Shown here: piece by piece, positions 1 to 15,793 of the stretch | Layout of the letters: each line of letters begins with the position of its first letter | Position numbering within the stretch: position 1 is the first letter of the stretch | Assembly: GCA_019739215.1 (NCBI GenBank) | Contig: JAHHDR010000027.1 | Span: 1-64,000 of the forward strand | Direction: 5' to 3' | Length of the DNA: 64,000 nucleotides | Origin: Rhizobium sp. | GTDB lineage: Bacteria > Pseudomonadota > Alphaproteobacteria > Rhizobiales > Rhizobiaceae | Program-made: the position numbers and the translations under genes | The notes under the pieces: model-generated | Told to the model about the DNA's origin: nothing | Databases searched by the model: none | What the model saw: the letters and a program-made list of their open reading frames with translations, nothing else

Positions 1-227
1 TTTCGATCGACAATGACCGCGAGGTGACCGACCGGCTGTGGAACCGCTTCATTGCCGCGTGGTTCGAGCATGGCAAGGACGATCCGAAACTCGCTTTGCT
101 TCGCTTCGACACCGAGCGCGCCGAAATCTGGGAAGATGAATGGAGCCTCGTGGCTGGCCTCAAGCTGCTGATGGGCATCGATCCTAAGAAGGACTACCAG
201 GACAAGGTGGCCGAAGTCTCACTCTGA
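1..227 (+). CDS. PNPOx-family general stress protein, 5'-truncated copy
   Basis: This is the C-terminal 74 or so residues of a pyridoxamine 5'-phosphate oxidase-like split-barrel protein (general stress protein 26 type). The first codon lies beyond the window edge. It is identical to the C-terminus of the complete gene at 15311-15793, which carries the full description. The copy exists only because of the inverted duplication, so it may not be a real second locus. Confidence 0.85.
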   Translation, partial: SIDNDREVTDRLWNRFIAAWFEHGKDDPKLALLRFDTERAEIWEDEWSLVAGLKLLMGIDPKKDYQDKVAEVSL

Positions 228-234
228 GGTTGAA

Positions 235-867
235 TCAGGTCAGCCGCGCGCTCCACGCCGCCACCGCGTCGGCCATCGAGCGCATATGATCGGCATGCGT
301 AAGGCCGGTCACGGCCTTGCGCGGCTTGAGATCGTGATCGCCATCGGCGAACCAGCGAATGGCGATCGAAGGTGAGAGCGTGTAGGCGGCGACTTCCTCC
401 TGACTGCCAAAGATATCCCGAGAGCCCTGGCAGATCAGTGCCGGCGTCCGCATCGCCTCGAGGTGAGCGGTGCGCAGTCGTTCCGGCTTGCCGGGTGGGT
501 GGAAGGGATAGCCCAGACACAGCAGCCCCGCGATACGGCCCGAAGCATGCTCCTTGTCGGCAATCATGCTCGCGACCCTGCCGCCCATGGATTTACCCCC
601 GATGACCAGTCGACCGGCCGGTGTCAGTGCTGCGATCGCCGCACGGTACTCACCCATCAGCATTTCGGCCTTGGGCGGCGGCTTGCGGCTCTCCGACGTC
701 CGCCGCGCGGCCATGTAGCCGAATTCAAATCGGGCCACTTGGAAGCCCCTTGCCGCGAGCGCGAAACTTGCGGCATTCATCGCGCTCGAATCCATCGCGC
801 CGCCGGCGCCATGCGCGAGAAGGATTGTGAATTCGGCCGTTTCGGAGCCTTCAAGCAGGAACATCAC
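235..867 (-). CDS. Alpha/beta hydrolase of the KANSL3/Tex30-like family (left copy)
   Basis: A 210-residue single-domain alpha/beta hydrolase with no signal peptide, so cytoplasmic. The N-terminus has the LLAHGAGG oxyanion-hole loop. The nucleophile elbow is GGKSMGGR (Ser near residue 93). A C-terminal GDHDL segment supplies the expected catalytic His, with an Asp in the GSRDIFG segment before it. The length and the GAGG and GKSMGG motifs fit the COG3571-type family, whose substrates are unknown. It converges with the PNPOx-family gene, with seven bases between the stop codons. It is duplicated exactly at 14671-15303. Confidence 0.85.
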   Translation of the reverse strand: MMFLLEGSETAEFTILLAHGAGGAMDSSAMNAASFALAARGFQVARFEFGYMAARRTSESRKPPPKAEMLMGEYRAAIAALTPAGRLVIGGKSMGGRVASMIADKEHASGRIAGLLCLGYPFHPPGKPERLRTAHLEAMRTPALICQGSRDIFGSQEEVAAYTLSPSIAIRWFADGDHDLKPRKAVTGLTHADHMRSMADAVAAWSARLT

Positions 868-960
868 CGTCGCCTTTCCGGGGGTTGACCGGTGATGTCA
901 TAGCGTATTTTGCTCGGTTCAAAGAGTTCGTGCTGGCGCACAGTGGCCTGCATCGCCGCT

Positions 961-990
961 TTGACACCCCGCTGGGCATAGTGGTATCAT
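961..990 (+). promoter_or_regulatory. Sigma70-type promoter TTGACA-N18-TATCAT
   Basis: TTGACA at 961-966 and TATCAT at 985-990 are separated by 18 bases. They lie about 60 bases before the ATG of the small membrane protein at 1051. The match to housekeeping consensus is good (6/6 and 5/6). The mirror copy is at 14548-14577 on the minus strand. Confidence 0.55.
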
Positions 991-1050
991 GCAGTTGCCG
1001 GCCGCGAGGGCATTGTGCAGCGGTCGCAGCACCGATCATGGGAGCAGACC

Positions 1051-1218
1051 ATGAACAGCAGCACACGCAACATCGTCATCGCCGCCATCGTCATAATTCT
1101 GGCAATTCTCGCCTATTACATGTGGGGTGGGGGCACTCCGGCAACGACGCCGGCGGCCACCACGACGCCTGCCGACACCACCGAGCCGGCAGCGGACACC
1201 AACACGCAGACGCAGTAA
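1051..1218 (+). CDS. Small single-pass membrane protein (left copy)
   Basis: A 55-residue protein whose ATG at 1051 follows a GGGAG ribosome site. Residues about 6-22 form one hydrophobic helix rich in Ile, Val, Ala and Leu. After the helix comes a short GGG turn and a roughly 30-residue tail made almost only of Thr, Pro, Ala, Asp and Glu, ending near TNTQTQ. It is probably an N-in, C-out anchored peptide with an extended periplasmic tail. No family was recognised. The upstream in-frame Met at 1015 has no ribosome site. Identical copy at 14320-14487. Confidence 0.6.
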   Translation: MNSSTRNIVIAAIVIILAILAYYMWGGGTPATTPAATTTPADTTEPAADTNTQTQ

Positions 1219-1284
1219 TCGCGCCGACGCCCGGACACCGGCGACGCCACGTATCAATTCGTGGCGCGCTCGTTGTTGGTCAGG

Positions 1285-1727
1285 TCAGACGGCAAGGTGT
1301 CGGGCGATATCGTCAACCGGCATGCCAGTCAGATCCTTGTCGAGTTCGCCGATCACGGCCGCGCGCACGCTGGCCGATATCGCGCTTCTGAGATGCGCCA
1401 GCGCCTTCGGCGGCGCGACCAGAACGATCGCCTGGTAGCCCTCGACACAGGCCCTGTCGATCGCCGCTGCCGTTTCCGCCATGAACCGCTCACCCGCCAT
1501 TGCATGCCAGTCAGTCTGCTCGACGGCGCTGCGATGGCTGCCGGAGAAGGCCCGCCCGGACGATCTGTGCCTTGCTCGTGCGTCGGAGGATTGTCCGGCG
1601 CTTCCAGCACCAACCGCACTTCCAGCGCGGGCGTTCCCGGCGAACCATTGTTCCTGATGAGAAGCGCCTTGCTGTAATCGGCCACGACGACGAGTCCGCC
1701 ATTCGGCACGCTGACTTTCTTGCTCAT
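1285..1727 (-). pseudogene. Host attachment (Host_attach/AtsE-like) family gene with frameshift (left copy)
   Basis: The protein resembles the host-attachment protein family (PF10116), about 145 residues. One frame encodes the N-terminal half (MSKKVSVPNGGLVVVADYSKA to about residue 60) and another the C-terminal half (TDWHAMAGERFMAE to DIARHLAV). The switch falls at a GGG run near 1555-1562, where restoring one G would give a continuous family-like protein. It is either a pseudogene or a homopolymer sequencing error, and the mirror copy at 13811-14253 carries the same indel. The start ATG follows GGAGG by 12 bases. Confidence 0.7.
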
Positions 1728-1768
1728 GACAGTGTCCATCCTCCGGTTTTCCGCACACATGTGCGCAC

Positions 1769-1797
1769 GACCTCAATGTTTCGCATTGATTGAGGTC
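1769..1797. promoter_or_regulatory. Inverted repeat between two small genes
   Basis: Two perfect 9-base arms (GACCTCAAT and ATTGAGGTC) with an 11-base loop lie between the host-attachment-like gene and the 65-residue protein gene, which run in the same direction. No T-run follows, so it could be an operator or a weak terminator. The mirror copy is at 13741-13769. Confidence 0.4.
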
Positions 1798-1827
1798 AAA
1801 TCGGTGGCGCCGGCGCGTGGACCGGTG

Positions 1828-2025
1828 TCAGCGGGCGGGCAGATCCTGTTTTTCGCCGGCGCTTCGCCCGTCCGAGCTGCGCGAGCGCTCCTCGATCCGG
1901 TCCTTGCCCTTTTTGAGATCCGACCCTTTGGCGCGCTCGACATCCCGTTCCTCCTGCCGCGTGGCCTCGTGAAGTGCCTTGGCAGCGGCATCGCCTGCGT
2001 TGGTTCCTGTCTGCTTGGTGGTCAT
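1828..2025 (-). CDS. Small, highly charged hydrophilic protein (left copy)
   Basis: A 65-residue protein with ATG at 2025 behind a GGAGAA ribosome site. It has no hydrophobic stretch. It is made of Lys, Arg, Asp, Glu, Gly, Ser and Ala, with blocks such as RQEERDVERAKG and GKDRIEERSRSS. This composition is like small stress-linked disordered proteins of rhizobia, but no family is recognised. A near-consensus EcfG promoter precedes it (see 13461-13485 on the mirror copy). Identical copy at 13513-13710. Confidence 0.6.
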   Translation of the reverse strand: MTTKQTGTNAGDAAAKALHEATRQEERDVERAKGSDLKKGKDRIEERSRSSDGRSAGEKQDLPAR

Positions 2026-2112
2026 GGGACTTCTCCGTTGCTGTCGATTCGAAATGCCCCGGCCGGCAACGGGTTCCATGGTGGAGCATGTTCAAGCCCA
2101 ACGTGATCATAC

Positions 2113-2124
2113 ATGTATAGACAT
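2113..2124 (+). promoter_or_regulatory. Putative HutC-type GntR operator before SDR gene
   Basis: The core GTATAGAC at 2115-2122 fits the HutC-subfamily GntR consensus GTnTAnAC. It lies 57 bases before the SDR start. The flanking ATG...ACATCATGG is repeated almost exactly before the ABC ATPase gene at 3049. The mirror copy is at 13414-13425. Confidence 0.5.
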
Positions 2125-2179
2125 CATGGGCGATGCGTGGTGTTCTTGCGCATGCCGACGTGAGCAAGGGGACTTTTTA

Positions 2180-2947
2180 ATGACCAAGGCGCTGTTCGAT
2201 CTTTCGGGTCGCAAGGCTCTCGTCACCGGAGGGAGCCGCGGTATTGGCCAGCAGATAGCCGTGGCATTGGCGGATGCGGGAGCCGACATCGCGATTACTG
2301 CCCGCAGCCTCGACGGCCTGGCCGAGACACAGGCAAGCATCGAAGACTCGGGTGCTCGTTGCGTCGCGCTGGCGCAGGACGTCCGCGACGTCGAGGGTTC
2401 GTCACGGGCTGTCGAAGCCGCCGCGGCGGCGCTGGGCGGCCTGGATATCCTGATCAACAATGCCGGCTTCGAGAATGTGCGGCCATCGATGGATGTTGAC
2501 GAGGCGCTGTGGGATTCGATCGTCGACACCAATCTCAAGGGCGCCTTCTTCTGCGCCCGAGCTGCCGGGCGGATCATGGCGGGGACGGGCGGCGGGGCGA
2601 TGGTCAACCTCTGCTCGCTGACATCCTTCGTCGGCATTCCGACGGCCGTGCCCTATGGCGCATCGAAGACCGGCCTGCTGGGGATGACCCGCGCGCTGGC
2701 CACCGAATGGGCGCCGCAGGGCATCCGCGTCAACGCCATCGCGCCCGGCTATTTCCGGACGGCGATGACCGAGGCGTTCTATGATGATCAGGACTGGCAG
2801 TCGCGCATGCTTGCAAAAATTCCGCAGGGCCGCTTCGGCGGTGATGGCGATATTGGGGGGGTGACGGTCTTCCTTTGCAGCGATGCCGCCGCCTATGTCA
2901 CCGGCCATTGCATTCCGGTCGACGGTGGATATCTCGCGTCGATCTGA
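2180..2947 (+). CDS. SDR-family NAD(P)-dependent oxidoreductase (left copy)
   Basis: A 255-residue classical short-chain dehydrogenase, the usual length for the family. The cofactor motif GGSRGIG is at residues 17-23 and NNAG near 93-96. The catalytic triad is Ser146, Tyr159 and Lys163 (YGASK), followed by the RVNAIAPGYFRT segment. It resembles gluconate 5-dehydrogenase and 3-ketoacyl reductase-like members. The substrate is unknown but is probably an alcohol or sugar acid. It is the first gene of a cluster with a PotABCD-type importer and a HisD paralog, and has its own putative GntR operator. Start at 2180: the longer in-frame start at 1979 would overlap the gene upstream. Identical copy at 12591-13358. 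Confidence 0.88.
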   Translation: MTKALFDLSGRKALVTGGSRGIGQQIAVALADAGADIAITARSLDGLAETQASIEDSGARCVALAQDVRDVEGSSRAVEAAAAALGGLDILINNAGFENVRPSMDVDEALWDSIVDTNLKGAFFCARAAGRIMAGTGGGAMVNLCSLTSFVGIPTAVPYGASKTGLLGMTRALATEWAPQGIRVNAIAPGYFRTAMTEAFYDDQDWQSRMLAKIPQGRFGGDGDIGGVTVFLCSDAAAYVTGHCIPVDGGYLASI

Positions 2948-3028
2948 CGTCAAAGTTTGACCTGTTTTTTCGCAAGTGCACAAGAATTGAGCAGGCCGTG
3001 AGCAAGCGCAAAAAACACGCAGATGGCG

Positions 3029-3057
3029 TTGACGTGACTTGTATGGATATGTATAGA
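3029..3057 (+). promoter_or_regulatory. Promoter TTGACG-N17-TATAGA overlapped by the operator
   Basis: TTGACG at 3029-3034 and TATAGA at 3052-3057 are 17 bases apart, about 60 bases before the ABC ATPase start. The -10 element is embedded in the putative GntR operator at 3049-3060, an arrangement expected for simple repression. The mirror copy is at 12481-12509. Confidence 0.5.
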
Positions 3058-3060
3058 CAA
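3049..3060 (+). promoter_or_regulatory. Putative HutC-type GntR operator before ABC transporter operon
   Basis: The core GTATAGAC at 3051-3058 matches GTnTAnAC. About 17 of 18 bases around it are shared with the site at 2113-2124. Two such sites in one cluster point to a common repressor, but no GntR gene lies in the window. The mirror copy is at 12478-12489. Confidence 0.5.
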
Positions 3061-3115
3061 CATGGCGTCAGCTCTCGGGCGGATGCGAAATCTTGCAGGG
3101 GATAGAAGGCTTATC

Positions 3116-4245
3116 ATGGTATCCGCCCTGGCCGAAAATCGCGTTCCAGCCGACTTGATCGCCGTGTCGGTCAAGGATGTCGGGATGCGTTTCGGCGATG
3201 TTCATGCGGTGCGCAGCGCCTCGTTCGATCTGCCAAAAGGCAAATTCCTGACGATCCTCGGCCCGTCCGGCTCGGGCAAGACCACGCTGCTCAGGATGAT
3301 AGCCGGCTTCGATGCGCCGACGTCGGGCGAAATCTATATCAGCGGCCAGCCTGTGAGTGCCGTGCCGCCGCATCTGCGCGCCATCGGCATGGTGTTCCAG
3401 AAGCTTGCACTCTTTCCGCACATGACAGCCGCTGAGAACGTCGCATTTCCGCTCAAGATGCGCCGCCATGATGCGCGAACGATACCGGCGAAGGTTGAGC
3501 GCTATCTCGAACTCGTGCGCCTTGGCGGGTACGGTTCGCGCCGCATCAACGAGTTGTCCGGCGGGCAGCAGCAGCGCGTTGCGATTGCCCGCGCGCTGGT
3601 CTTTGAGCCCGACCTGCTGTTGCTCGATGAGCCGCTCGCAGCGCTCGACCGCAAGCTGCGCGAGGAAATGCAGCTCGAGTTCCGCCGCATCCAGAAGGAG
3701 CTCGGCGTCACCACGATCAACGTCACCCACGACCAGCGCGAGGCGCTTGTCGTCTCCGACGAGGTCATCGTCATGGATGGTGGCGTGATCCAGCAGAAGG
3801 CAGCACCGGTCGGCGCCTACCGCAGCCCGGCCAATGCCTTCGTTGCCAATTTCATTGGCGTCACCAATTTCATCGAGGGCAAGGTCGTTTCCGTGTCGGG
3901 GCCTTCCGTGCAGGTCGAAGCCCATGGCCGGACGCTGTCGGGCGTTGCCGTCGGCGATGCGCTCGCAGCCGGCCGGCCCTGCTCGGGCGCGATCCGCGCC
4001 GAACAGATCCGGATCGCCGCCTCGGCCGACACATTGAGCGGTCTGGAAAACCGTCATGGATGGCACCGTCACCGATGCGATCTTCGAGGGCGAGCGCATC
4101 GTCTACGAGATCAGAGTCCCCCGGCCTCGGCAACGCGCTGATGCGCGTCTTCGACCACGATCCGGTCAATCACCTGCAATTCAGCCCCGGCGACGCTGTC
4201 TGCCTGGGTTGGAATGGCCGGGATATGCATGTCTTCAACAAGTAA
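3116..4245 (+). pseudogene. PotA-type ABC transporter ATPase, two frameshifts near the C-terminus (left copy)
   Basis: This is the ATPase of a spermidine/putrescine-type (POPT family) importer. Walker A GPSGSGKTT is at residues 49-57, the signature is LSGGQQQR, Walker B is LLLLDEP and the switch is NVTHDQ. A TOBE-like domain follows. The frame breaks twice: in AAAA near 4048 and in CCCCC near 4112. Removing one A and one C gives a continuous end through VMDGTVTDAIFEGE, PGLGNALMRVF and HVFNK, stopping at 4245, so each indel is one extra base. Both are probably homopolymer errors, although gene decay is possible. The start at 3116 has an AGAAGG site. Identical copy, same indels, at 11293-12422. 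Confidence 0.85.
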
Positions 4246-4276
4246 ACCAGAAGGTTTCAACAGAGGAGAACGCCAC

Positions 4277-5392
4277 ATGTCGCATGAGAAATTGGGAACT
4301 ATGCAGATCCGCCGCCGAACGCTGCTTGGCTCGTTTGCGGCCGTGGGCGCCAGCGCCGGCCTGTCGACGCTCGGCGTCAGCCGCGCCTTCGCCCAGGAGC
4401 CGGAAAAGCCGGCGGAAATCATCATCCGGGCCTGGGGCGGCAGCTGGGTCGACGCGCTGAAGGCCGGCGTGTCCGACAGCTTCACCAAGATGACCGGCAT
4501 CGCCGTCCGCCACGATCTCACCGAAGACAACGAGATCCAGCCCAAGGTCTGGGCCGCGGTGGCGCAGAACCGCGTGCCGCCGATCCACATCAACTGGGAC
4601 ACGACCACCAACGCCACCAAGTCGGCCTTGCGCGGCGTGACGGAAGACCTGTCCGACCTGCCCAACCTCAAGAACACCACCGATCTCGCCAAGCCGGTCG
4701 GCCTCGACGGCTATCCGATCGTCAACACCTACGGCTATGTCTATGTGCTGGCCTACCGCCCCTCGGCTTTCCCGGACGGACCGCCGAAGTCCTGGAAGGA
4801 CCTGCTCGATCCCAGGCTCAAGGGCCGCATCGCGCTCTACAATGACGGCATCGGCTTCCACTTCCCGGCGCAGGTCGCCGGTGGCGGCAAGCTCGAGGAT
4901 ATTCCGGGCAACATGCAGCCGGCCTGGGATTTCGTCGCCAAGATCAAGGAACAGCAGCCGCTGCTCGGCGAAGATCCCGATTTCACCACCTGGTTCCAGA
5001 AGGGCGAGATCGACGCGGCCTGCACGATCTCGACCAATGCCCGCGAAGCCCGGAAGAACGGCATCGACATCGCCTGGGTGGTTCCGGAAGAGGGCGCCAA
5101 GTTCGATACCGATGGTCTCTGGATCCCCAAGGGCCTGCCGAAAAACGAACTCTACTGGGCCAAGCAGTACATCAACCATGCCCTGACCAAGGAAGCCCAG
5201 CAGGTCTGGCTCGACGGCCTCGGCCTGCCGGGCGTCATCCCGGGCCTGACTCCGCCGGCCGATCTCGTGGGTGATCCGTCCTATCCGACCAAGGAAGAGG
5301 ACTTCAAGCACCTGATCCGGGTCTCCTCCAAGATCCAGGTCGAGAACGAGAGCGCCTGGTTCGCGAAGTTCAAGGAAATCATGCAGGGCTGA
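4277..5392 (+). CDS. ABC transporter substrate-binding protein, PotD-like, Tat signal (left copy)
   Basis: A 371-residue periplasmic solute-binding protein of the spermidine/putrescine-type family. The N-terminus has a twin-arginine signal (RRRTLLGS from residue 12, hydrophobic core, AFA-Q cleavage near 39), so it would be exported folded. The mature part starts with the family-like IIIRAWGGSW and contains IHINWDTTTN and NTYGYVYVLAYRP. The ligand cannot be named from sequence. The ATG at 4277 follows AGAGGAGAA. It follows the ATPase gene and is followed by a GC hairpin before the permease genes, as is usual where the binding protein needs higher expression. Identical copy at 10146-11261. Confidence 0.9.
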   Translation: MSHEKLGTMQIRRRTLLGSFAAVGASAGLSTLGVSRAFAQEPEKPAEIIIRAWGGSWVDALKAGVSDSFTKMTGIAVRHDLTEDNEIQPKVWAAVAQNRVPPIHINWDTTTNATKSALRGVTEDLSDLPNLKNTTDLAKPVGLDGYPIVNTYGYVYVLAYRPSAFPDGPPKSWKDLLDPRLKGRIALYNDGIGFHFPAQVAGGGKLEDIPGNMQPAWDFVAKIKEQQPLLGEDPDFTTWFQKGEIDAACTISTNAREARKNGIDIAWVVPEEGAKFDTDGLWIPKGLPKNELYWAKQYINHALTKEAQQVWLDGLGLPGVIPGLTPPADLVGDPSYPTKEEDFKHLIRVSSKIQVENESAWFAKFKEIMQG

Positions 5393-5402
5393 GTCCCTGA
5401 CG

Positions 5403-5424
5403 GCCCGCCGCTCCGGCGGCGGGC
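5403..5424 (+). promoter_or_regulatory. Intercistronic GC hairpin after the binding-protein gene
   Basis: A perfect 9-base-pair stem (GCCCGCCGC with GCGGCGGGC) has a TCCG loop, 11 bases after the binding-protein stop, with no T-run. It probably protects the upstream mRNA or attenuates expression of the permeases. The mirror copy is at 10114-10135. Confidence 0.6.
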
Positions 5425-5453
5425 TCCACCAAACCGGAAACTGGATCGGAACC

Positions 5454-6398
5454 ATGCGCTCTTCCCGTGTCGCATATCCGCTGACCTGGCGCGTCATGGA
5501 CGCGGCGGAGCGCGGTGCGGCCTTTCTCTGGCCACGACGCTTCAGGCGCGCCCTGCCGGCGCTGATGCTGATGCCGGCGATCGTGCTTGTCGGGCTTCTG
5601 GTCCTCGGCCTTTTCCAGATCGGAGATGCGAGCCTCAGGACGCTGGACACGTCCACCTTCCTGATGTCGGAGACTTACACGCTGGCGAACTACCAGCGGG
5701 CGCTCACCGAAAAATTCTTCATGACCGTGGCCGGTCGCAGCCTGATGGGCGCGCTGATCGTCACGGTCGTCACGCTGATCTTCGCCTTGCCCTATGCCTA
5801 TCTGATGGTGCGGACACCCTCGTCGGCGCTGCGCAAGTTTCTGCTTGTGGCGCTGTTCCTGCCGTTCTTCATCGGCCAGGTCGTGCGGGCCTATGGCTGG
5901 CTGATCATTCTCGGCAACCAGGGGATGGTCAACGAGGCGCTGGGCCTTGTCGGCGTGGCGCCGATCCGCCTGCTCTACAATTATCCCGCCGTCCTCTTCG
6001 GACTGGTGCAGTACATGTTGCCTTTCGCCGTGCTGATGCTGGCGCCTGCGCTCACGGCAATTCCCGCGGAGCTCGAATCCGCCGCGAACTCGCTGGGCGC
6101 CAACTGGGTGCGCACCTTCCGCCATATCGTGCTGCCGCTGGCGCGACCCGGCCTCGTCGGCGCCGGCCTCGTGGTGGTCACGCTGTCGCTCACCGATTTC
6201 GCCATCCCCGCCATTCTCGGCGGAGGGACGCAGGATTTCATCGCCAACGCCATCTACGATCAGTTCTTCCGCACCTCCGACCAAGGCCTCGGCGCCACGC
6301 TGTCGCTGCTGCTGGTGGCGGTCGGGTCGATGCTGGTCGGCGTGGTCTTCCTTTTGTTCGGTGCCGGCACGCTCGCGATGACCGGAGACCGAAAATGA
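5454..6398 (+). CDS. ABC transporter permease, PotB-like (left copy)
   Basis: A 314-residue inner-membrane permease with about six transmembrane helices. The first is at residues about 37-58. The cytoplasmic EAA loop reads ELESAANSLGANW followed by FRHIVLPLARPG and couples to the ATPase. It is one of two different permeases forming the channel of the POPT-type importer. Its last four bases overlap the start of the second permease (ATGA), so the two are translationally coupled. Identical copy at 9140-10084. Confidence 0.9.
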   Translation: MRSSRVAYPLTWRVMDAAERGAAFLWPRRFRRALPALMLMPAIVLVGLLVLGLFQIGDASLRTLDTSTFLMSETYTLANYQRALTEKFFMTVAGRSLMGALIVTVVTLIFALPYAYLMVRTPSSALRKFLLVALFLPFFIGQVVRAYGWLIILGNQGMVNEALGLVGVAPIRLLYNYPAVLFGLVQYMLPFAVLMLAPALTAIPAELESAANSLGANWVRTFRHIVLPLARPGLVGAGLVVVTLSLTDFAIPAILGGGTQDFIANAIYDQFFRTSDQGLGATLSLLLVAVGSMLVGVVFLLFGAGTLAMTGDRK

Positions 6399-7195
6399 CC
6401 GGTAGCCTCGGCAAGTCCGTGACGATCTGGGCCTTCGTCATGGCAGCATTGCTGATGCTGTCGGCGCCTACTGTTGTTGTGCTCGGGGCGTCCTTCACGT
6501 CTGGCAATATCATCACCTTCCCGCCGGATGGCTTTTCGCTCAAATGGTACGGCGCCATCGCCGGGGCGAGCGACCTGCGACAGGCTTTCGTCCGGTCGCT
6601 GATCGTGGCGGCGATCTGCACGCTGGTGGCGATCCCCGTCGGCACGCTGGCCGGCATCGCGCTGGCCAAGTACCGGATCCGCTTTGCCAACACGATCCAG
6701 ATCTACCTGCTGCTGCCCTTCACCATCCCGCTGATCGGCTCGGGAATCGGCATGATGCTGGTCTTCGGCAAGATGGGCGTGCTCGGCAGCCTCTGGCCGG
6801 TCGGCATCGCCTGCTGCGTCATCAACCTGCCGTTCATGATCTGGGCGGTCATGGCGAGCGCCAGCAATATTTCGCCCGATCTCGAGCTTGCTGCCGCCAA
6901 TTGCGGCGCGCCGCCGCTGCAATGCTTCCTCTACATCACGCTGCCGGCGGTGCTCCCCGGCGTCATCACCGGTTCGCTGCTGATGTTCATCTTGGCTCTC
7001 AACGAATTCCTGGTGAGCCTGCTGCTGGTCGATGCCCGCAGTGTGACGCTGCCGGTGCAGATCTACAATTCCATCCGCTCTATCATCACGCCGGATCTCG
7101 CCGCCATCTCGGTTGTGTTCATCGCCTGCGCCGCCATCGCCATCGCCCTTCTCGACAGGCTCGTCGGGCTCGACATCTTCCTGAAATCGAAATGA
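6395..7195 (+). CDS. ABC transporter permease, PotC-like (left copy)
   Basis: A 266-residue second permease with six predicted membrane helices. The EAA loop (DLELAAANCGAPPLQCFLYI followed by LPAVLPG) lies near residues 165-195. It pairs with the PotB-like subunit. It begins in a 4-base overlap with that gene and is followed after 40 bases by the HisD-like gene, so transporter and enzyme are probably co-transcribed. Identical copy at 8343-9143. Confidence 0.9.
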   Translation: MTGSLGKSVTIWAFVMAALLMLSAPTVVVLGASFTSGNIITFPPDGFSLKWYGAIAGASDLRQAFVRSLIVAAICTLVAIPVGTLAGIALAKYRIRFANTIQIYLLLPFTIPLIGSGIGMMLVFGKMGVLGSLWPVGIACCVINLPFMIWAVMASASNISPDLELAAANCGAPPLQCFLYITLPAVLPGVITGSLLMFILALNEFLVSLLLVDARSVTLPVQIYNSIRSIITPDLAAISVVFIACAAIAIALLDRLVGLDIFLKSK

Positions 7196-7235
7196 AGACG
7201 CGCCCGGACGGGCAACGCAATCCGAGGACAAGACC

Positions 7236-7821
7236 ATGACATCAGTGTCGTTCTACGAATATTCCAAGCTCGATGCCGAGGGGAAGGCAGCGCTTCTGCG
7301 CCGCTCCGAGGCGGATATTTCGAGCTTCGTCGAGAAGGTCGCGCCGATCCTCGAGGCCGTCCGCACCGAAGGCGACGCCGCACTCGCCCGTTTCGGCCGC
7401 GAACTCGACAAGGCCGACGTGACCGAGGCCAATCTCCAGGTGACCGAGGCGGAGTTCGACGCGGCCTTCAAGCTGGTCGACGAGAGCGTCATCGCCTCGA
7501 TCCGCTTCGGCATCGACAACATCCGCACCTTCCATGAAGAGCAGAAGCCCGAGGCGATGTGGCTCAAGGAAATCCGTCCGGGTGCCTTTGCCGGCGACCG
7601 CTTCACGCCGATCAAGTCGGTGGCGCTCTACGTGCCGCGTGGCAAGGGCTCGTTTCCGTCTGTGACGATGATGACCTCGGTCCCGGCCGTCGTCGCCGGC
7701 GTGCCTGATCTCGCCATCGTCACGCCGCCGGCCCCGGATGGCACTGTCGATGCCGCGACGCTGGTGGCCGCACGGCTTGCGGGCGTCGAGACCATCTACA
7801 AGATCGGCGGCGCGCTGGCGG
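7236..7821 (+). pseudogene. Histidinol dehydrogenase-like gene cut at the fold (left copy)
   Basis: The first 195 or so residues of a HisD-family (COG0141) NAD-dependent dehydrogenase, whose members are usually about 430 residues. The segment VALYVPRGKGSFPSVTMM resembles the HpsN-like paralogs (sulfopropanediol dehydrogenases) more than biosynthetic HisD, and the location beside a transporter suggests catabolism. The real frame continues through the spacer (VETIYKIGGA) and then runs into the mirrored arm. The open frame to 7910 is thus a chimera, with no catalytic C-terminal half. The usual Gln after GGA is replaced by Leu next to the junction. Confidence 0.8.
7717..7821. other. Spacer of the inverted duplication
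   Basis: These 105 bases are present once. They continue the HisD-like reading frame of the left arm without a break (residues about 161-195, ending in a GGALAVA stretch). The spacer is therefore native sequence attached to the left arm, and the breakpoint is at its right edge, where the sequence jumps to the complement of base 7716. Confidence 0.9.
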
Positions 7822-8302
7822 TGGCGAGATCAGGCACGCCGGCGACGACGGCCGGGACCGAGGTCATCATCGTCACAGACGGAAACGAGCCCTTGCCACG
7901 CGGCACGTAGAGCGCCACCGACTTGATCGGCGTGAAGCGGTCGCCGGCAAAGGCACCCGGACGGATTTCCTTGAGCCACATCGCCTCGGGCTTCTGCTCT
8001 TCATGGAAGGTGCGGATGTTGTCGATGCCGAAGCGGATCGAGGCGATGACGCTCTCGTCGACCAGCTTGAAGGCCGCGTCGAACTCCGCCTCGGTCACCT
8101 GGAGATTGGCCTCGGTCACGTCGGCCTTGTCGAGTTCGCGGCCGAAACGGGCGAGTGCGGCGTCGCCTTCGGTGCGGACGGCCTCGAGGATCGGCGCGAC
8201 CTTCTCGACGAAGCTCGAAATATCCGCCTCGGAGCGGCGCAGAAGCGCTGCCTTCCCCTCGGCATCGAGCTTGGAATATTCGTAGAACGACACTGATGTC
8301 AT
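7822..8302 (-). pseudogene. Histidinol dehydrogenase-like gene cut at the fold (right copy)
   Basis: The first 160 residues are identical to the left copy. The frame then enters the spacer on the wrong strand and stops at 7796 after a few unrelated residues (ATASAPPIL). The zinc-binding and catalytic half is missing. If the fold is an artefact, this is the native 5' part of an intact gene whose remainder lies outside the assembled sequence. It is the last gene of the SDR/ABC cluster. Confidence 0.8.
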
Positions 8303-8342
8303 GGTCTTGTCCTCGGATTGCGTTGCCCGTCCGGGCGCGTCT

Positions 8343-9143
8343 TCATTTCGATTTCAGGAAGATGTCGAGCCCGACGAGCCTGTCGAGAAGGGCGATGGCG
8401 ATGGCGGCGCAGGCGATGAACACAACCGAGATGGCGGCGAGATCCGGCGTGATGATAGAGCGGATGGAATTGTAGATCTGCACCGGCAGCGTCACACTGC
8501 GGGCATCGACCAGCAGCAGGCTCACCAGGAATTCGTTGAGAGCCAAGATGAACATCAGCAGCGAACCGGTGATGACGCCGGGGAGCACCGCCGGCAGCGT
8601 GATGTAGAGGAAGCATTGCAGCGGCGGCGCGCCGCAATTGGCGGCAGCAAGCTCGAGATCGGGCGAAATATTGCTGGCGCTCGCCATGACCGCCCAGATC
8701 ATGAACGGCAGGTTGATGACGCAGCAGGCGATGCCGACCGGCCAGAGGCTGCCGAGCACGCCCATCTTGCCGAAGACCAGCATCATGCCGATTCCCGAGC
8801 CGATCAGCGGGATGGTGAAGGGCAGCAGCAGGTAGATCTGGATCGTGTTGGCAAAGCGGATCCGGTACTTGGCCAGCGCGATGCCGGCCAGCGTGCCGAC
8901 GGGGATCGCCACCAGCGTGCAGATCGCCGCCACGATCAGCGACCGGACGAAAGCCTGTCGCAGGTCGCTCGCCCCGGCGATGGCGCCGTACCATTTGAGC
9001 GAAAAGCCATCCGGCGGGAAGGTGATGATATTGCCAGACGTGAAGGACGCCCCGAGCACAACAACAGTAGGCGCCGACAGCATCAGCAATGCTGCCATGA
9101 CGAAGGCCCAGATCGTCACGGACTTGCCGAGGCTACCGGTCAT
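8343..9143 (-). CDS. ABC transporter permease, PotC-like (right copy)
   Basis: Identical to the gene at 6395-7195: 266 residues, six helices, EAA loop for ATPase contact. It is the second inner-membrane subunit of the PotABCD-type importer. It overlaps the PotB-like permease by four bases (9140-9143) and precedes the truncated HisD-like gene by 40 bases. Confidence 0.9.
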   Translation of the reverse strand: MTGSLGKSVTIWAFVMAALLMLSAPTVVVLGASFTSGNIITFPPDGFSLKWYGAIAGASDLRQAFVRSLIVAAICTLVAIPVGTLAGIALAKYRIRFANTIQIYLLLPFTIPLIGSGIGMMLVFGKMGVLGSLWPVGIACCVINLPFMIWAVMASASNISPDLELAAANCGAPPLQCFLYITLPAVLPGVITGSLLMFILALNEFLVSLLLVDARSVTLPVQIYNSIRSIITPDLAAISVVFIACAAIAIALLDRLVGLDIFLKSK

Positions 9144-10084
9144 TTTCGGTCTCCGGTCATCGCGAGCGTGCCGGCACCGAACAAAAGGAAGACCACGCCG
9201 ACCAGCATCGACCCGACCGCCACCAGCAGCAGCGACAGCGTGGCGCCGAGGCCTTGGTCGGAGGTGCGGAAGAACTGATCGTAGATGGCGTTGGCGATGA
9301 AATCCTGCGTCCCTCCGCCGAGAATGGCGGGGATGGCGAAATCGGTGAGCGACAGCGTGACCACCACGAGGCCGGCGCCGACGAGGCCGGGTCGCGCCAG
9401 CGGCAGCACGATATGGCGGAAGGTGCGCACCCAGTTGGCGCCCAGCGAGTTCGCGGCGGATTCGAGCTCCGCGGGAATTGCCGTGAGCGCAGGCGCCAGC
9501 ATCAGCACGGCGAAAGGCAACATGTACTGCACCAGTCCGAAGAGGACGGCGGGATAATTGTAGAGCAGGCGGATCGGCGCCACGCCGACAAGGCCCAGCG
9601 CCTCGTTGACCATCCCCTGGTTGCCGAGAATGATCAGCCAGCCATAGGCCCGCACGACCTGGCCGATGAAGAACGGCAGGAACAGCGCCACAAGCAGAAA
9701 CTTGCGCAGCGCCGACGAGGGTGTCCGCACCATCAGATAGGCATAGGGCAAGGCGAAGATCAGCGTGACGACCGTGACGATCAGCGCGCCCATCAGGCTG
9801 CGACCGGCCACGGTCATGAAGAATTTTTCGGTGAGCGCCCGCTGGTAGTTCGCCAGCGTGTAAGTCTCCGACATCAGGAAGGTGGACGTGTCCAGCGTCC
9901 TGAGGCTCGCATCTCCGATCTGGAAAAGGCCGAGGACCAGAAGCCCGACAAGCACGATCGCCGGCATCAGCATCAGCGCCGGCAGGGCGCGCCTGAAGCG
10001 TCGTGGCCAGAGAAAGGCCGCACCGCGCTCCGCCGCGTCCATGACGCGCCAGGTCAGCGGATATGCGACACGGGAAGAGCGCAT
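9140..10084 (-). CDS. ABC transporter permease, PotB-like (right copy)
   Basis: Identical to the gene at 5454-6398: the 314-residue first permease subunit of the POPT-type importer, with the EAA loop in the second half of the protein. It stands between the GC hairpin at 10114-10135 and the overlapping PotC-like gene. Confidence 0.9.
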   Translation of the reverse strand: MRSSRVAYPLTWRVMDAAERGAAFLWPRRFRRALPALMLMPAIVLVGLLVLGLFQIGDASLRTLDTSTFLMSETYTLANYQRALTEKFFMTVAGRSLMGALIVTVVTLIFALPYAYLMVRTPSSALRKFLLVALFLPFFIGQVVRAYGWLIILGNQGMVNEALGLVGVAPIRLLYNYPAVLFGLVQYMLPFAVLMLAPALTAIPAELESAANSLGANWVRTFRHIVLPLARPGLVGAGLVVVTLSLTDFAIPAILGGGTQDFIANAIYDQFFRTSDQGLGATLSLLLVAVGSMLVGVVFLLFGAGTLAMTGDRK

Positions 10085-10113
10085 GGTTCCGATCCAGTTT
10101 CCGGTTTGGTGGA

Positions 10114-10135
10114 GCCCGCCGCCGGAGCGGCGGGC
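10114..10135 (-). promoter_or_regulatory. Intercistronic GC hairpin (right copy)
   Basis: Mirror of 5403-5424, a 9-base-pair stem with a 4-base loop between the binding-protein and permease genes. It has no T-run, so it probably stabilises or attenuates rather than fully terminates. Confidence 0.6.
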
Positions 10136-10145
10136 CGTCAGGGAC

Positions 10146-11261
10146 TCAGCCCTGCATGATTTCCTTGAACTTCGCGAACCAGGCGCTCTCGTTCTCGACC
10201 TGGATCTTGGAGGAGACCCGGATCAGGTGCTTGAAGTCCTCTTCCTTGGTCGGATAGGACGGATCACCCACGAGATCGGCCGGCGGAGTCAGGCCCGGGA
10301 TGACGCCCGGCAGGCCGAGGCCGTCGAGCCAGACCTGCTGGGCTTCCTTGGTCAGGGCATGGTTGATGTACTGCTTGGCCCAGTAGAGTTCGTTTTTCGG
10401 CAGGCCCTTGGGGATCCAGAGACCATCGGTATCGAACTTGGCGCCCTCTTCCGGAACCACCCAGGCGATGTCGATGCCGTTCTTCCGGGCTTCGCGGGCA
10501 TTGGTCGAGATCGTGCAGGCCGCGTCGATCTCGCCCTTCTGGAACCAGGTGGTGAAATCGGGATCTTCGCCGAGCAGCGGCTGCTGTTCCTTGATCTTGG
10601 CGACGAAATCCCAGGCCGGCTGCATGTTGCCCGGAATATCCTCGAGCTTGCCGCCACCGGCGACCTGCGCCGGGAAGTGGAAGCCGATGCCGTCATTGTA
10701 GAGCGCGATGCGGCCCTTGAGCCTGGGATCGAGCAGGTCCTTCCAGGACTTCGGCGGTCCGTCCGGGAAAGCCGAGGGGCGGTAGGCCAGCACATAGACA
10801 TAGCCGTAGGTGTTGACGATCGGATAGCCGTCGAGGCCGACCGGCTTGGCGAGATCGGTGGTGTTCTTGAGGTTGGGCAGGTCGGACAGGTCTTCCGTCA
10901 CGCCGCGCAAGGCCGACTTGGTGGCGTTGGTGGTCGTGTCCCAGTTGATGTGGATCGGCGGCACGCGGTTCTGCGCCACCGCGGCCCAGACCTTGGGCTG
11001 GATCTCGTTGTCTTCGGTGAGATCGTGGCGGACGGCGATGCCGGTCATCTTGGTGAAGCTGTCGGACACGCCGGCCTTCAGCGCGTCGACCCAGCTGCCG
11101 CCCCAGGCCCGGATGATGATTTCCGCCGGCTTTTCCGGCTCCTGGGCGAAGGCGCGGCTGACGCCGAGCGTCGACAGGCCGGCGCTGGCGCCCACGGCCG
11201 CAAACGAGCCAAGCAGCGTTCGGCGGCGGATCTGCATAGTTCCCAATTTCTCATGCGACAT
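10146..11261 (-). CDS. ABC transporter substrate-binding protein, PotD-like, Tat signal (right copy)
   Basis: Identical to the gene at 4277-5392: a 371-residue periplasmic binding protein with a twin-arginine signal peptide (RRRTLLGS, cleavage after AFA). It would capture an unknown small cationic or organic ligand for the adjacent permeases. Confidence 0.9.
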   Translation of the reverse strand: MSHEKLGTMQIRRRTLLGSFAAVGASAGLSTLGVSRAFAQEPEKPAEIIIRAWGGSWVDALKAGVSDSFTKMTGIAVRHDLTEDNEIQPKVWAAVAQNRVPPIHINWDTTTNATKSALRGVTEDLSDLPNLKNTTDLAKPVGLDGYPIVNTYGYVYVLAYRPSAFPDGPPKSWKDLLDPRLKGRIALYNDGIGFHFPAQVAGGGKLEDIPGNMQPAWDFVAKIKEQQPLLGEDPDFTTWFQKGEIDAACTISTNAREARKNGIDIAWVVPEEGAKFDTDGLWIPKGLPKNELYWAKQYINHALTKEAQQVWLDGLGLPGVIPGLTPPADLVGDPSYPTKEEDFKHLIRVSSKIQVENESAWFAKFKEIMQG

Positions 11262-11292
11262 GTGGCGTTCTCCTCTGTTGAAACCTTCTGGT

Positions 11293-12422
11293 TTACTTGT
11301 TGAAGACATGCATATCCCGGCCATTCCAACCCAGGCAGACAGCGTCGCCGGGGCTGAATTGCAGGTGATTGACCGGATCGTGGTCGAAGACGCGCATCAG
11401 CGCGTTGCCGAGGCCGGGGGACTCTGATCTCGTAGACGATGCGCTCGCCCTCGAAGATCGCATCGGTGACGGTGCCATCCATGACGGTTTTCCAGACCGC
11501 TCAATGTGTCGGCCGAGGCGGCGATCCGGATCTGTTCGGCGCGGATCGCGCCCGAGCAGGGCCGGCCGGCTGCGAGCGCATCGCCGACGGCAACGCCCGA
11601 CAGCGTCCGGCCATGGGCTTCGACCTGCACGGAAGGCCCCGACACGGAAACGACCTTGCCCTCGATGAAATTGGTGACGCCAATGAAATTGGCAACGAAG
11701 GCATTGGCCGGGCTGCGGTAGGCGCCGACCGGTGCTGCCTTCTGCTGGATCACGCCACCATCCATGACGATGACCTCGTCGGAGACGACAAGCGCCTCGC
11801 GCTGGTCGTGGGTGACGTTGATCGTGGTGACGCCGAGCTCCTTCTGGATGCGGCGGAACTCGAGCTGCATTTCCTCGCGCAGCTTGCGGTCGAGCGCTGC
11901 GAGCGGCTCATCGAGCAACAGCAGGTCGGGCTCAAAGACCAGCGCGCGGGCAATCGCAACGCGCTGCTGCTGCCCGCCGGACAACTCGTTGATGCGGCGC
12001 GAACCGTACCCGCCAAGGCGCACGAGTTCGAGATAGCGCTCAACCTTCGCCGGTATCGTTCGCGCATCATGGCGGCGCATCTTGAGCGGAAATGCGACGT
12101 TCTCAGCGGCTGTCATGTGCGGAAAGAGTGCAAGCTTCTGGAACACCATGCCGATGGCGCGCAGATGCGGCGGCACGGCACTCACAGGCTGGCCGCTGAT
12201 ATAGATTTCGCCCGACGTCGGCGCATCGAAGCCGGCTATCATCCTGAGCAGCGTGGTCTTGCCCGAGCCGGACGGGCCGAGGATCGTCAGGAATTTGCCT
12301 TTTGGCAGATCGAACGAGGCGCTGCGCACCGCATGAACATCGCCGAAACGCATCCCGACATCCTTGACCGACACGGCGATCAAGTCGGCTGGAACGCGAT
12401 TTTCGGCCAGGGCGGATACCAT
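11293..12422 (-). pseudogene. PotA-type ABC transporter ATPase with two frameshifts (right copy)
   Basis: Identical to 3116-4245, including the extra base in the A-run (near 11490) and in the C-run (near 11426). The Walker A, LSGGQQQR and Walker B motifs are intact, and only the C-terminal TOBE-like region is out of frame. Identical indels in both arms show that the arms share one origin, either a recent duplication or one consensus used twice. Confidence 0.85.
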
Positions 12423-12477
12423 GATAAGCCTTCTATCCCCTGCAAGATTTCGCATCCGCCCGAGAGCTGACGCCATG

Positions 12478-12489
12478 TTGTCTATACAT
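12478..12489 (-). promoter_or_regulatory. Putative HutC-type GntR operator (right copy, ABC operon)
   Basis: Mirror of 3049-3060. The GTnTAnAC core overlaps the -10 element of the TTGACG-N17-TATAGA promoter (12481-12509, minus strand) that would drive the ABC-HisD operon. Confidence 0.5.
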
Positions 12490-12590
12490 ATCCATACAAG
12501 TCACGTCAACGCCATCTGCGTGTTTTTTGCGCTTGCTCACGGCCTGCTCAATTCTTGTGCACTTGCGAAAAAACAGGTCAAACTTTGACG

Positions 12591-13358
12591 TCAGATCGAC
12601 GCGAGATATCCACCGTCGACCGGAATGCAATGGCCGGTGACATAGGCGGCGGCATCGCTGCAAAGGAAGACCGTCACCCCCCCAATATCGCCATCACCGC
12701 CGAAGCGGCCCTGCGGAATTTTTGCAAGCATGCGCGACTGCCAGTCCTGATCATCATAGAACGCCTCGGTCATCGCCGTCCGGAAATAGCCGGGCGCGAT
12801 GGCGTTGACGCGGATGCCCTGCGGCGCCCATTCGGTGGCCAGCGCGCGGGTCATCCCCAGCAGGCCGGTCTTCGATGCGCCATAGGGCACGGCCGTCGGA
12901 ATGCCGACGAAGGATGTCAGCGAGCAGAGGTTGACCATCGCCCCGCCGCCCGTCCCCGCCATGATCCGCCCGGCAGCTCGGGCGCAGAAGAAGGCGCCCT
13001 TGAGATTGGTGTCGACGATCGAATCCCACAGCGCCTCGTCAACATCCATCGATGGCCGCACATTCTCGAAGCCGGCATTGTTGATCAGGATATCCAGGCC
13101 GCCCAGCGCCGCCGCGGCGGCTTCGACAGCCCGTGACGAACCCTCGACGTCGCGGACGTCCTGCGCCAGCGCGACGCAACGAGCACCCGAGTCTTCGATG
13201 CTTGCCTGTGTCTCGGCCAGGCCGTCGAGGCTGCGGGCAGTAATCGCGATGTCGGCTCCCGCATCCGCCAATGCCACGGCTATCTGCTGGCCAATACCGC
13301 GGCTCCCTCCGGTGACGAGAGCCTTGCGACCCGAAAGATCGAACAGCGCCTTGGTCAT
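12591..13358 (-). CDS. SDR-family NAD(P)-dependent oxidoreductase (right copy)
   Basis: Identical to 2180-2947: a 255-residue short-chain dehydrogenase with GGSRGIG and the Ser146-Tyr159-Lys163 triad. It leads the cluster of SDR, ABC importer and HisD-like enzyme. The two dehydrogenases may oxidise the imported compound in successive steps, which is inferred from position only. Confidence 0.88.
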   Translation of the reverse strand: MTKALFDLSGRKALVTGGSRGIGQQIAVALADAGADIAITARSLDGLAETQASIEDSGARCVALAQDVRDVEGSSRAVEAAAAALGGLDILINNAGFENVRPSMDVDEALWDSIVDTNLKGAFFCARAAGRIMAGTGGGAMVNLCSLTSFVGIPTAVPYGASKTGLLGMTRALATEWAPQGIRVNAIAPGYFRTAMTEAFYDDQDWQSRMLAKIPQGRFGGDGDIGGVTVFLCSDAAAYVTGHCIPVDGGYLASI

Positions 13359-13413
13359 TAAAAAGTCCCCTTGCTCACGTCGGCATGCGCAAGAACACCA
13401 CGCATCGCCCATG

Positions 13414-13425
13414 ATGTCTATACAT
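13414..13425 (-). promoter_or_regulatory. Putative HutC-type GntR operator (right copy, SDR gene)
   Basis: Mirror of 2113-2124, with core GTnTAnAC, 56 bases upstream of the SDR start on the minus strand. Confidence 0.5.
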
Positions 13426-13460
13426 GTATGATCACGTTGGGCTTGAACATGCTCCACCAT

Positions 13461-13485
13461 GGAACCCGTTGCCGGCCGGGGCATT
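13461..13485 (+). promoter_or_regulatory. Near-consensus EcfG stress promoter GGAAC-N16-CATT
   Basis: GGAAC at 13461-13465 is followed after 16 bases by CATT, one base from the EcfG -10 core CGTT. It lies 28 bases before the ATG of the small charged protein at 13513. The mirror copy is at 2053-2077 on the minus strand. It would place that protein in the general stress response. Confidence 0.4.
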
Positions 13486-13512
13486 TCGAATCGACAGCAA
13501 CGGAGAAGTCCC

Positions 13513-13710
13513 ATGACCACCAAGCAGACAGGAACCAACGCAGGCGATGCCGCTGCCAAGGCACTTCACGAGGCCACGCGGCAGGAGGAACGGGATGTCG
13601 AGCGCGCCAAAGGGTCGGATCTCAAAAAGGGCAAGGACCGGATCGAGGAGCGCTCGCGCAGCTCGGACGGGCGAAGCGCCGGCGAAAAACAGGATCTGCC
13701 CGCCCGCTGA
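13513..13710 (+). CDS. Small, highly charged hydrophilic protein (right copy)
   Basis: Identical to the 65-residue protein at 1828-2025. It is disordered-looking, without hydrophobic segments, and preceded by a GGAGAA ribosome site and a near-consensus EcfG promoter. The function is unknown. It is transcribed towards the host-attachment-like gene, with an inverted repeat at 13741-13769 between them. Confidence 0.6.
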   Translation: MTTKQTGTNAGDAAAKALHEATRQEERDVERAKGSDLKKGKDRIEERSRSSDGRSAGEKQDLPAR

Positions 13711-13810
13711 CACCGGTCCACGCGCCGGCGCCACCGATTTGACCTCAATCAATGCGAAACATTGAGGTCGTGCGCACATGTGTGCGGAAAACCGGAGGAT
13801 GGACACTGTC

Positions 13811-14253
13811 ATGAGCAAGAAAGTCAGCGTGCCGAATGGCGGACTCGTCGTCGTGGCCGATTACAGCAAGGCGCTTCTCATCAGGAACAATGGTTCGCCG
13901 GGAACGCCCGCGCTGGAAGTGCGGTTGGTGCTGGAAGCGCCGGACAATCCTCCGACGCACGAGCAAGGCACAGATCGTCCGGGCGGGCCTTCTCCGGCAG
14001 CCATCGCAGCGCCGTCGAGCAGACTGACTGGCATGCAATGGCGGGTGAGCGGTTCATGGCGGAAACGGCAGCGGCGATCGACAGGGCCTGTGTCGAGGGC
14101 TACCAGGCGATCGTTCTGGTCGCGCCGCCGAAGGCGCTGGCGCATCTCAGAAGCGCGATATCGGCCAGCGTGCGCGCGGCCGTGATCGGCGAACTCGACA
14201 AGGATCTGACTGGCATGCCGGTTGACGATATCGCCCGACACCTTGCCGTCTGA
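13811..14253 (+). pseudogene. Host attachment (Host_attach/AtsE-like) family gene with frameshift (right copy)
   Basis: Identical to 1285-1727. Two frames each encode half of a PF10116-like protein of about 147 residues, and the break is at the GGG run near 13980. Adding one G would join the halves as RPGRAFSGSH. A GGAGG site lies 12 bases before the ATG. In a finished genome this would probably be an intact gene. Confidence 0.7.
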
Positions 14254-14319
14254 CCTGACCAACAACGAGCGCGCCACGAATTGATACGTGGCGTCGCCGG
14301 TGTCCGGGCGTCGGCGCGA

Positions 14320-14487
14320 TTACTGCGTCTGCGTGTTGGTGTCCGCTGCCGGCTCGGTGGTGTCGGCAGGCGTCGTGGTGGCCGCCGGCGTCGTTGCCGG
14401 AGTGCCCCCACCCCACATGTAATAGGCGAGAATTGCCAGAATTATGACGATGGCGGCGATGACGATGTTGCGTGTGCTGCTGTTCAT
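14320..14487 (-). CDS. Small single-pass membrane protein (right copy)
   Basis: Identical to 1051-1218: 55 residues, one N-terminal helix and a Thr/Pro/Ala-rich tail. Its promoter is mirrored at 14548-14577. It is divergent from the alpha/beta hydrolase gene at 14671. Confidence 0.6.
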   Translation of the reverse strand: MNSSTRNIVIAAIVIILAILAYYMWGGGTPATTPAATTTPADTTEPAADTNTQTQ

Positions 14488-14670
14488 GGTCTGCTCCCAT
14501 GATCGGTGCTGCGACCGCTGCACAATGCCCTCGCGGCCGGCAACTGCATGATACCACTATGCCCAGCGGGGTGTCAAAGCGGCGATGCAGGCCACTGTGC
14601 GCCAGCACGAACTCTTTGAACCGAGCAAAATACGCTATGACATCACCGGTCAACCCCCGGAAAGGCGACG

Positions 14671-15303
14671 GTGATGTTCCTGCTTGAAGGCTCCGAAACG
14701 GCCGAATTCACAATCCTTCTCGCGCATGGCGCCGGCGGCGCGATGGATTCGAGCGCGATGAATGCCGCAAGTTTCGCGCTCGCGGCAAGGGGCTTCCAAG
14801 TGGCCCGATTTGAATTCGGCTACATGGCCGCGCGGCGGACGTCGGAGAGCCGCAAGCCGCCGCCCAAGGCCGAAATGCTGATGGGTGAGTACCGTGCGGC
14901 GATCGCAGCACTGACACCGGCCGGTCGACTGGTCATCGGGGGTAAATCCATGGGCGGCAGGGTCGCGAGCATGATTGCCGACAAGGAGCATGCTTCGGGC
15001 CGTATCGCGGGGCTGCTGTGTCTGGGCTATCCCTTCCACCCACCCGGCAAGCCGGAACGACTGCGCACCGCTCACCTCGAGGCGATGCGGACGCCGGCAC
15101 TGATCTGCCAGGGCTCTCGGGATATCTTTGGCAGTCAGGAGGAAGTCGCCGCCTACACGCTCTCACCTTCGATCGCCATTCGCTGGTTCGCCGATGGCGA
15201 TCACGATCTCAAGCCGCGCAAGGCCGTGACCGGCCTTACGCATGCCGATCATATGCGCTCGATGGCCGACGCGGTGGCGGCGTGGAGCGCGCGGCTGACC
15301 TGA
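14671..15303 (+). CDS. Alpha/beta hydrolase of the KANSL3/Tex30-like family (right copy)
   Basis: Identical to 235-867: 210 residues, LLAHGAGG oxyanion loop, GKSMGG nucleophile elbow and GDHDL catalytic His segment. It converges on the PNPOx-family gene with seven bases between the stops. The substrate is unknown. Confidence 0.85.
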   Translation: MMFLLEGSETAEFTILLAHGAGGAMDSSAMNAASFALAARGFQVARFEFGYMAARRTSESRKPPPKAEMLMGEYRAAIAALTPAGRLVIGGKSMGGRVASMIADKEHASGRIAGLLCLGYPFHPPGKPERLRTAHLEAMRTPALICQGSRDIFGSQEEVAAYTLSPSIAIRWFADGDHDLKPRKAVTGLTHADHMRSMADAVAAWSARLT

Positions 15304-15310
15304 TTCAACC

Positions 15311-15793
15311 TCAGAGTGAGACTTCGGCCACCTTGTCCTGGTAGTCCTTCTTAGGATCGATGCCCATCAGCAGCTTGAGGCCAGCCACGAGGCTCCATTC
15401 ATCTTCCCAGATTTCGGCGCGCTCGGTGTCGAAGCGAAGCAAAGCGAGTTTCGGATCGTCCTTGCCATGCTCGAACCACGCGGCAATGAAGCGGTTCCAC
15501 AGCCGGTCGGTCACCTCGCGGTCATTGTCGATCGAAAGCATGCCATGGACGGTGGCGAACAGGCTGTGACCCTTCGAGGCGAACGTGAAGGTCGAACGCT
15601 GCCGGACCTGGATGTTCCGGACGATCGCCGTGTCCTTCGAGGTGAAGAACCAGATCGGTCCGGACCGCCCCTCGACCTGCGCCGTCATCGGACGGGCATG
15701 GCCGTCGTCGACACCGGTCAGGCCGAGCATGACGGTCATGTCGTCCGCAAGCGCGAGCCAGAATTTTTCTTCGAGCTTTTCAGGGCTGGTCAT
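15311..15793 (-). CDS. Pyridoxamine 5'-phosphate oxidase-family general stress protein
   Basis: A complete 160-residue cytoplasmic protein of the split beta-barrel flavin-binding fold, like general stress protein 26 (COG3871). The barrel core shows GHARPMTAQVEG, IWFFTSKDT and FASKGHSLFATVHG. It has no extra domains. Relatives bind FMN, FAD or F420, and the reaction here is unknown. A consensus EcfG promoter (GGAAC-N16-CGTT, 15824-15848) ends about 30 bases before the start, so it should belong to the general stress regulon. The left end of the window holds a truncated second copy, and only bases up to 15537 lie in the inverted repeat. Confidence 0.88.
   Translation of the reverse strand: MTSPEKLEEKFWLALADDMTVMLGLTGVDDGHARPMTAQVEGRSGPIWFFTSKDTAIVRNIQVRQRSTFTFASKGHSLFATVHGMLSIDNDREVTDRLWNRFIAAWFEHGKDDPKLALLRFDTERAEIWEDEWSLVAGLKLLMGIDPKKDYQDKVAEVSL

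Follow-up and report, generated by a model that had tools for sequence, protein, structure and literature searches.

A 7.7-kb palindrome at the start of a Rhizobium contig is most likely an amplification fold-back artefact

Is the large inverted duplication with which a contig of Rhizobium sp. begins a part of the organism, or of the way in which its sequence was obtained? The window, meaning the whole 64,000-nucleotide stretch of DNA that was analysed (G000:C27:1-64000), is taken from contig C27 (71,449 bp) of a draft assembly (G000) with 47 contigs and 5,957,730 bases, estimated to be 84.63% complete and 5.44% contaminated. When positions 1-15537 are compared base by base with their reverse complement, all 67 mismatched positions fall within 7717-7821, both of these end positions included, so that the segments 1-7716 and 7822-15537 are exact reverse complements with no mismatch. 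The palindrome has arms of 7716 bases each and a spacer of 105 bases; a repeat search that extends through mismatches returns arms of 7730 nt with 77 nt between them. A perfect match of 7.7 kb rules out chance. Base 1 of the window is also base 1 of the contig, so that the left arm is truncated where the contig ends and has no defined biological length.

Which of the two arms is real can be read from their outer edges. A pyridoxamine 5'-phosphate oxidase-like gene (15311-15793, - strand; PF16242 in the profile scan, E 1.6e-34, profile positions 4-137 of 149) runs intact across base 15537, the outer edge of the right arm, whereas its mirror copy, judged from the mirror coordinates, is truncated at base 1. 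Since this gene is whole over one edge but cut at the other, the left arm (1-7716, + strand), which ends mid-gene at the contig start, is taken to be a false, chimeric copy that was added, and the right arm (7822-15537, - strand), continuous with its unique flank, to be genuine chromosome. In addition, each of the best eight related loci listed is colinear with the whole or most of the stretch from 7805 to about 13,346. The original prediction had described an exact inverted duplication of these two segments around a 105-base spacer, with a left arm that begins mid-gene at base 1, and both parts of this description are borne out.

The right arm contains a transport and catabolic cluster. Five of its genes are on the - strand and were assigned by a profile scan of their mirror copies on the + strand: two ABC permeases (PF00528) at 8343-9143 (mirror 6395-7195) and 9140-10084 (mirror 5454-6398), an extracellular solute-binding protein (PF13416) at 10146-11324 (mirror 4214-5392), an ABC transporter ATPase (PF00005) at 11397-12476 (mirror 3062-4141) and a short-chain dehydrogenase (SDR, PF13561) at 12591-13559 (mirror 1979-2947). 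An alpha/beta hydrolase (PF20408, by profile scan) follows on the + strand at 14671-15303, with its mirror at 235-867 on the - strand.

The fold itself lies within a hisD-like gene. Open reading frames and PF00815 matches identify the spacer, or fold-back loop (7717-7821, + strand), as hisD coding sequence that is present once and is in frame with the left arm. The + strand open reading frame at 7236-7910, a hisD-like 5' fragment (PF00815) made of left arm and spacer, reads HisD across the spacer and ends in unrelated codons of the right arm. On the - strand, the open reading frame 8302-7796 is a hisD-like 5' fragment that represents the real start of the gene, broken at the fold, and its HisD reading is lost at the arm edge. 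The match extends over PF00815 profile positions 2-178 on the + copy as against 2-164 on the - copy. A PF00815 profile search of the assembly does not find the 3' half of the cut gene; its matches are the 5' halves on C27, two in number, and two complete paralogues, one located on C23 and the other on C2.

The related loci indicate what should have followed. Of 88 loci (some of them being one genome met twice), 84 have a match that runs as far as the spacer's end and enough further sequence to read on; each of the 84 continues with bases that fit Val-Ala codons (TNGCN), and at that very place the window turns back. The relatives have TGGC at the switch in 24 of the 84 loci and TGGCG in six, and these bases would pair with CGCCA at 7712-7716. 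Because the true continuation of the hisD-like gene in C27 is missing, the bases shared at its switch can be guessed from the relatives only. Beside the fold, the window has CTG at 7815-7817 and the hisD-like fragment reads GGALA, while the equivalent codon is CAG (Gln) in all 25 relatives listed, out of the 84. The CTG may reflect true divergence, or else an error of copying or reading at the switch.

A single real rearrangement should stand alone, which makes a scan of the contig ends the decisive test. We scanned the outer 20 kb (or the whole of a shorter contig) at all 94 contig ends, together with some interior stretches, for inverted duplications with arms of at least 400 bases; the sequence scanned amounts to 2,254,972 of the 5,957,730 bases, of which 509,513 are more than 20 kb from a contig end. 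Fold-backs are found at 28 of the 94 ends, on 24 of the 47 contigs, and four contigs (C15, C16, C24 and C46) have one at both ends. Such a spread over many unrelated sites in one library is what chimeras of multiple displacement amplification (MDA) would give. Every one of the 28 reaches to within 149 bases of the contig end, and 24 reach exactly to it. Their left arms measure 5,012-18,965 bases (median 10,876) and their spacers 1-718 bases (median 33), some being of 1-3 bases. No fold-back was found entirely within a contig, in a scan that read 509,513 bases more than 20 kb from the ends and that could miss fold-backs inside contigs or with arms much longer than 20 kb.

The two arms of a pair are 98.6-100% identical, being perfect in six of the 28, C27 included, and 98.6-99.99% in the remainder. 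The differences over the 28 pairs are mostly indels (354 gap columns versus 66 mismatches), which is in keeping with a long-read consensus; as a raw count, 187 of the 354 gap columns fall in runs of at least three equal bases. As a comparison, contig starts were taken from two genomes of the same genus (G003 and G005, ten starts each, starts only). Two of the G005 starts (L230 and L233), made up entirely of N, produced spurious k-mer counts and were excluded; the 18 readable starts (10 of 10 in G003, 8 of 10 in G005) contain no inverted duplication, though these genomes may have been sequenced by other methods and would then be a weak control for method. The 80 related loci compared, mostly away from contig ends, likewise contain none.

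For five of the 28 centres, the unfolded sequence is present in the same assembly: both ends of C46, C16 (crossed by C1), C35 (crossed by C5) and C17 (crossed by C26). The C16 fold is crossed by C1 at 100% identity over 1477 bases on one side and 94% over 3.5 kb on the other, the C35 fold by C5 at 91%, and the C17 fold by C26 at 99.8%. The segments C46:8379-9983 and C46:120528-122132 are the same in direct orientation (1605 bases, 100%), and by this overlap of its inner ends C46 itself crosses both of its folds. At the switch the bases shared number four (C46 start), nine (C46 end), five (C16) and six (C35, counted with shorter stretches owing to indels). C17 folds at a hairpin, which, read by eye, also stands in C26 in a normal setting. 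For the other 22 centres, C27 among them, no straight-through sequence is found in the 2,254,972 bases read.

Two further candidates were put aside. The start of C26 against C31 would have been a sixth straight-through case, but the match, at only 82.5-83.1%, may involve a paralogue or a contig end that is unpolished; C12 matches C25 over 1223 bases (100%), stopping short of the fold. Some contig-end overlaps are also imperfect: C5:1-3110, C1:1-6901 and C30:1-841 match their overlap partners at only 89-91%, for which unpolished long-read sequence or paralogy might account. C46 has a RepC-type match at 76756-77277 (PF03428); its real part is probably circular, with a length of about 112,149 bp, and C46 is likely a repABC-type plasmid with a fold-back at each contig end.

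Combining the information from the window, the contig ends and the straight-through copies, we consider the C27 palindrome most likely to be a fold-back artefact of isothermal whole-genome amplification (MDA, phi29 polymerase) that has come to lie at a contig end. That it is an artefact of one kind or the other, from amplification or from the library, is close to certain, and the palindrome, though present in the assembled sequence, very probably does not exist in the organism. Its second segment is an inverted copy of adjacent sequence (no mismatch over 7716 bases, 105 bases between), as in inverted MDA chimeras. In the mechanism that we propose, a 3' end would have paired during MDA, through a few bases, with a strand lying at a distance of 105 bases and would have been extended backwards, giving a molecule of template plus complement; a long read of this chimeric molecule would then have been assembled at the edge of C27, with the 105-base spacer as the loop, the last copied stretch of the hisD-like gene. 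Both the amplification step and the long reads are what we infer from the sequence. The perfect identity of the C27 arms speaks against an artefact, since single uncorrected long reads would differ, whereas polishing could map the same reads to both arms and so make them alike. The number of fold-backs, their loops and the shared bases fit amplification best.

Published chimeras offer a close parallel. According to PMC1855051 (Lasken and Stockwell 2007), 406 of 475 MDA chimeras were inverted and 76.8% were primed at two or more complementary bases, the explanation given there being that displaced 3' ends prime on nearby displaced strands. These chimeras resemble ours in the inverted second segment and the nearby genomic join, and resemble four other fold-backs of this assembly in the few complementary bases at the switch; they differ in that they come from 454 pyrosequencing reads, while here arms of 5-19 kb have survived into contigs. 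With long reads, PMC6218980 (Pacasus) gives the share of palindromic reads after amplification as 47.8% and 43.6% in two PacBio sets from Arabidopsis and 11.8% in one from gorilla, compared with 0.5% in the unamplified control, with inverted duplications in the gorilla assembly no longer detected after the reads were split; PMC13265396 describes palindromic reads as pervasive after MDA with nanopore sequencing. What these two sources report is alike in having template and complement in one long read, to the harm of the assembly, but their data are from plant, ape and tardigrade, whereas ours are remnants at the contig ends of a bacterial draft.

The same kind of artefact could also come from ordinary long-read library preparation or base calling without whole-genome amplification, as a nanopore fold-back or as a missed PacBio hairpin adapter, and this we consider unlikely, if still worth serious thought. 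A missed adapter should leave almost no genomic spacer, and this variant was dropped with 105 genomic bases at C27 and 1-718 (median 33) over the 28 fold-backs. For a library origin in general, the preponderance of indels in the arm differences (354 gap columns to 66 mismatches) is a point in favour, as are the reports that fold-backs make up about 0.55-0.6% of nanopore genomic reads (PMC12870357, which quotes another study for 1-4%, and in some tumour data up to 20-30%, in unamplified nanopore sequencing) and that nanopore ligation preparation yields inverted-repeat chimeras in microbial DNA (PMC13141652). With rates as high as those quoted for unamplified DNA, the amplification step is not proven. 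However, 28 of 94 contig ends is high for the low read rates, even if assembly may concentrate chimeras at ends, and the 4-9 shared bases together with loops of up to 718 suggest priming by an annealed 3' end. The fold-backs of Breakinator (PMC12870357) differ from ours in not being tied to amplification and in usually forming a low share of genomic reads; 200 bases is exceeded here by one spacer of 718 bases (C40) and two of 219. PacBio HiFi data are described in the same source as virtually without fold-backs.

The original prediction leaned towards an artefact of a contig start, either a fold-back read or an amplification chimera, and this agrees with a window that begins at the contig start and with the 28 of 94 ends that look alike. 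Its alternative, a real and recent amplification of the transport and catabolic cluster in the cell, for which an inverted duplication could have arisen by snap-back replication or tandem inversion duplication, has become very improbable. Snap-back replication at short inverted repeats can form such junctions in cells, and the perfect C27 arms count in its favour. However, this reading would place 28 large palindromes in a single genome, all of them in contact with a contig end, and in the same assembly the sequence is found unfolded at five of the 28 centres. A real amplification should also have unique sequence on both sides of the junction, whereas the left arm here reaches base 1 of the contig; a real flank might be concealed beyond that end, so that this point is not proof by itself. 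No point of rejoining is seen past the left arm, the missing hisD-like 3' half is not found in the assembly, and nothing similar appears in the 80 related loci or the 18 readable contig starts, so that little is left for amplification in the cell. It is scarcely credible that the strain itself has many large snap-back palindromes, for example through a defect in palindrome removal, with the assembly breaking at each. Some other biological palindrome, for example at the end of a linear replicon closed by a hairpin, would fit contig ends that stand next to folds, but we give it a negligible chance: the C27 fold is inside hisD coding sequence, and the 28 sites with loops of 1-718 bases include both ends of C46, which overlaps itself as a circle would.

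An amplification chimera of this kind has consequences for the use of the assembly. The false terminal arms total 311,637 bases, or 5.2% of the assembly, which is near the estimated contamination of 5.44%, and the two figures may be linked. Some genes are doubled by the arms and others truncated, and gene counts, copy numbers and claims of amplification near the contig ends of this assembly are not to be trusted. The palindrome should be taken as a warning and not as biology, and such errors are quickly spotted when each contig end is compared with its reverse complement. At the other end of the same contig, C27:71095-71449 overlaps C34:1-357 (357 aligned columns, 99.4%), and the two contigs probably join there.
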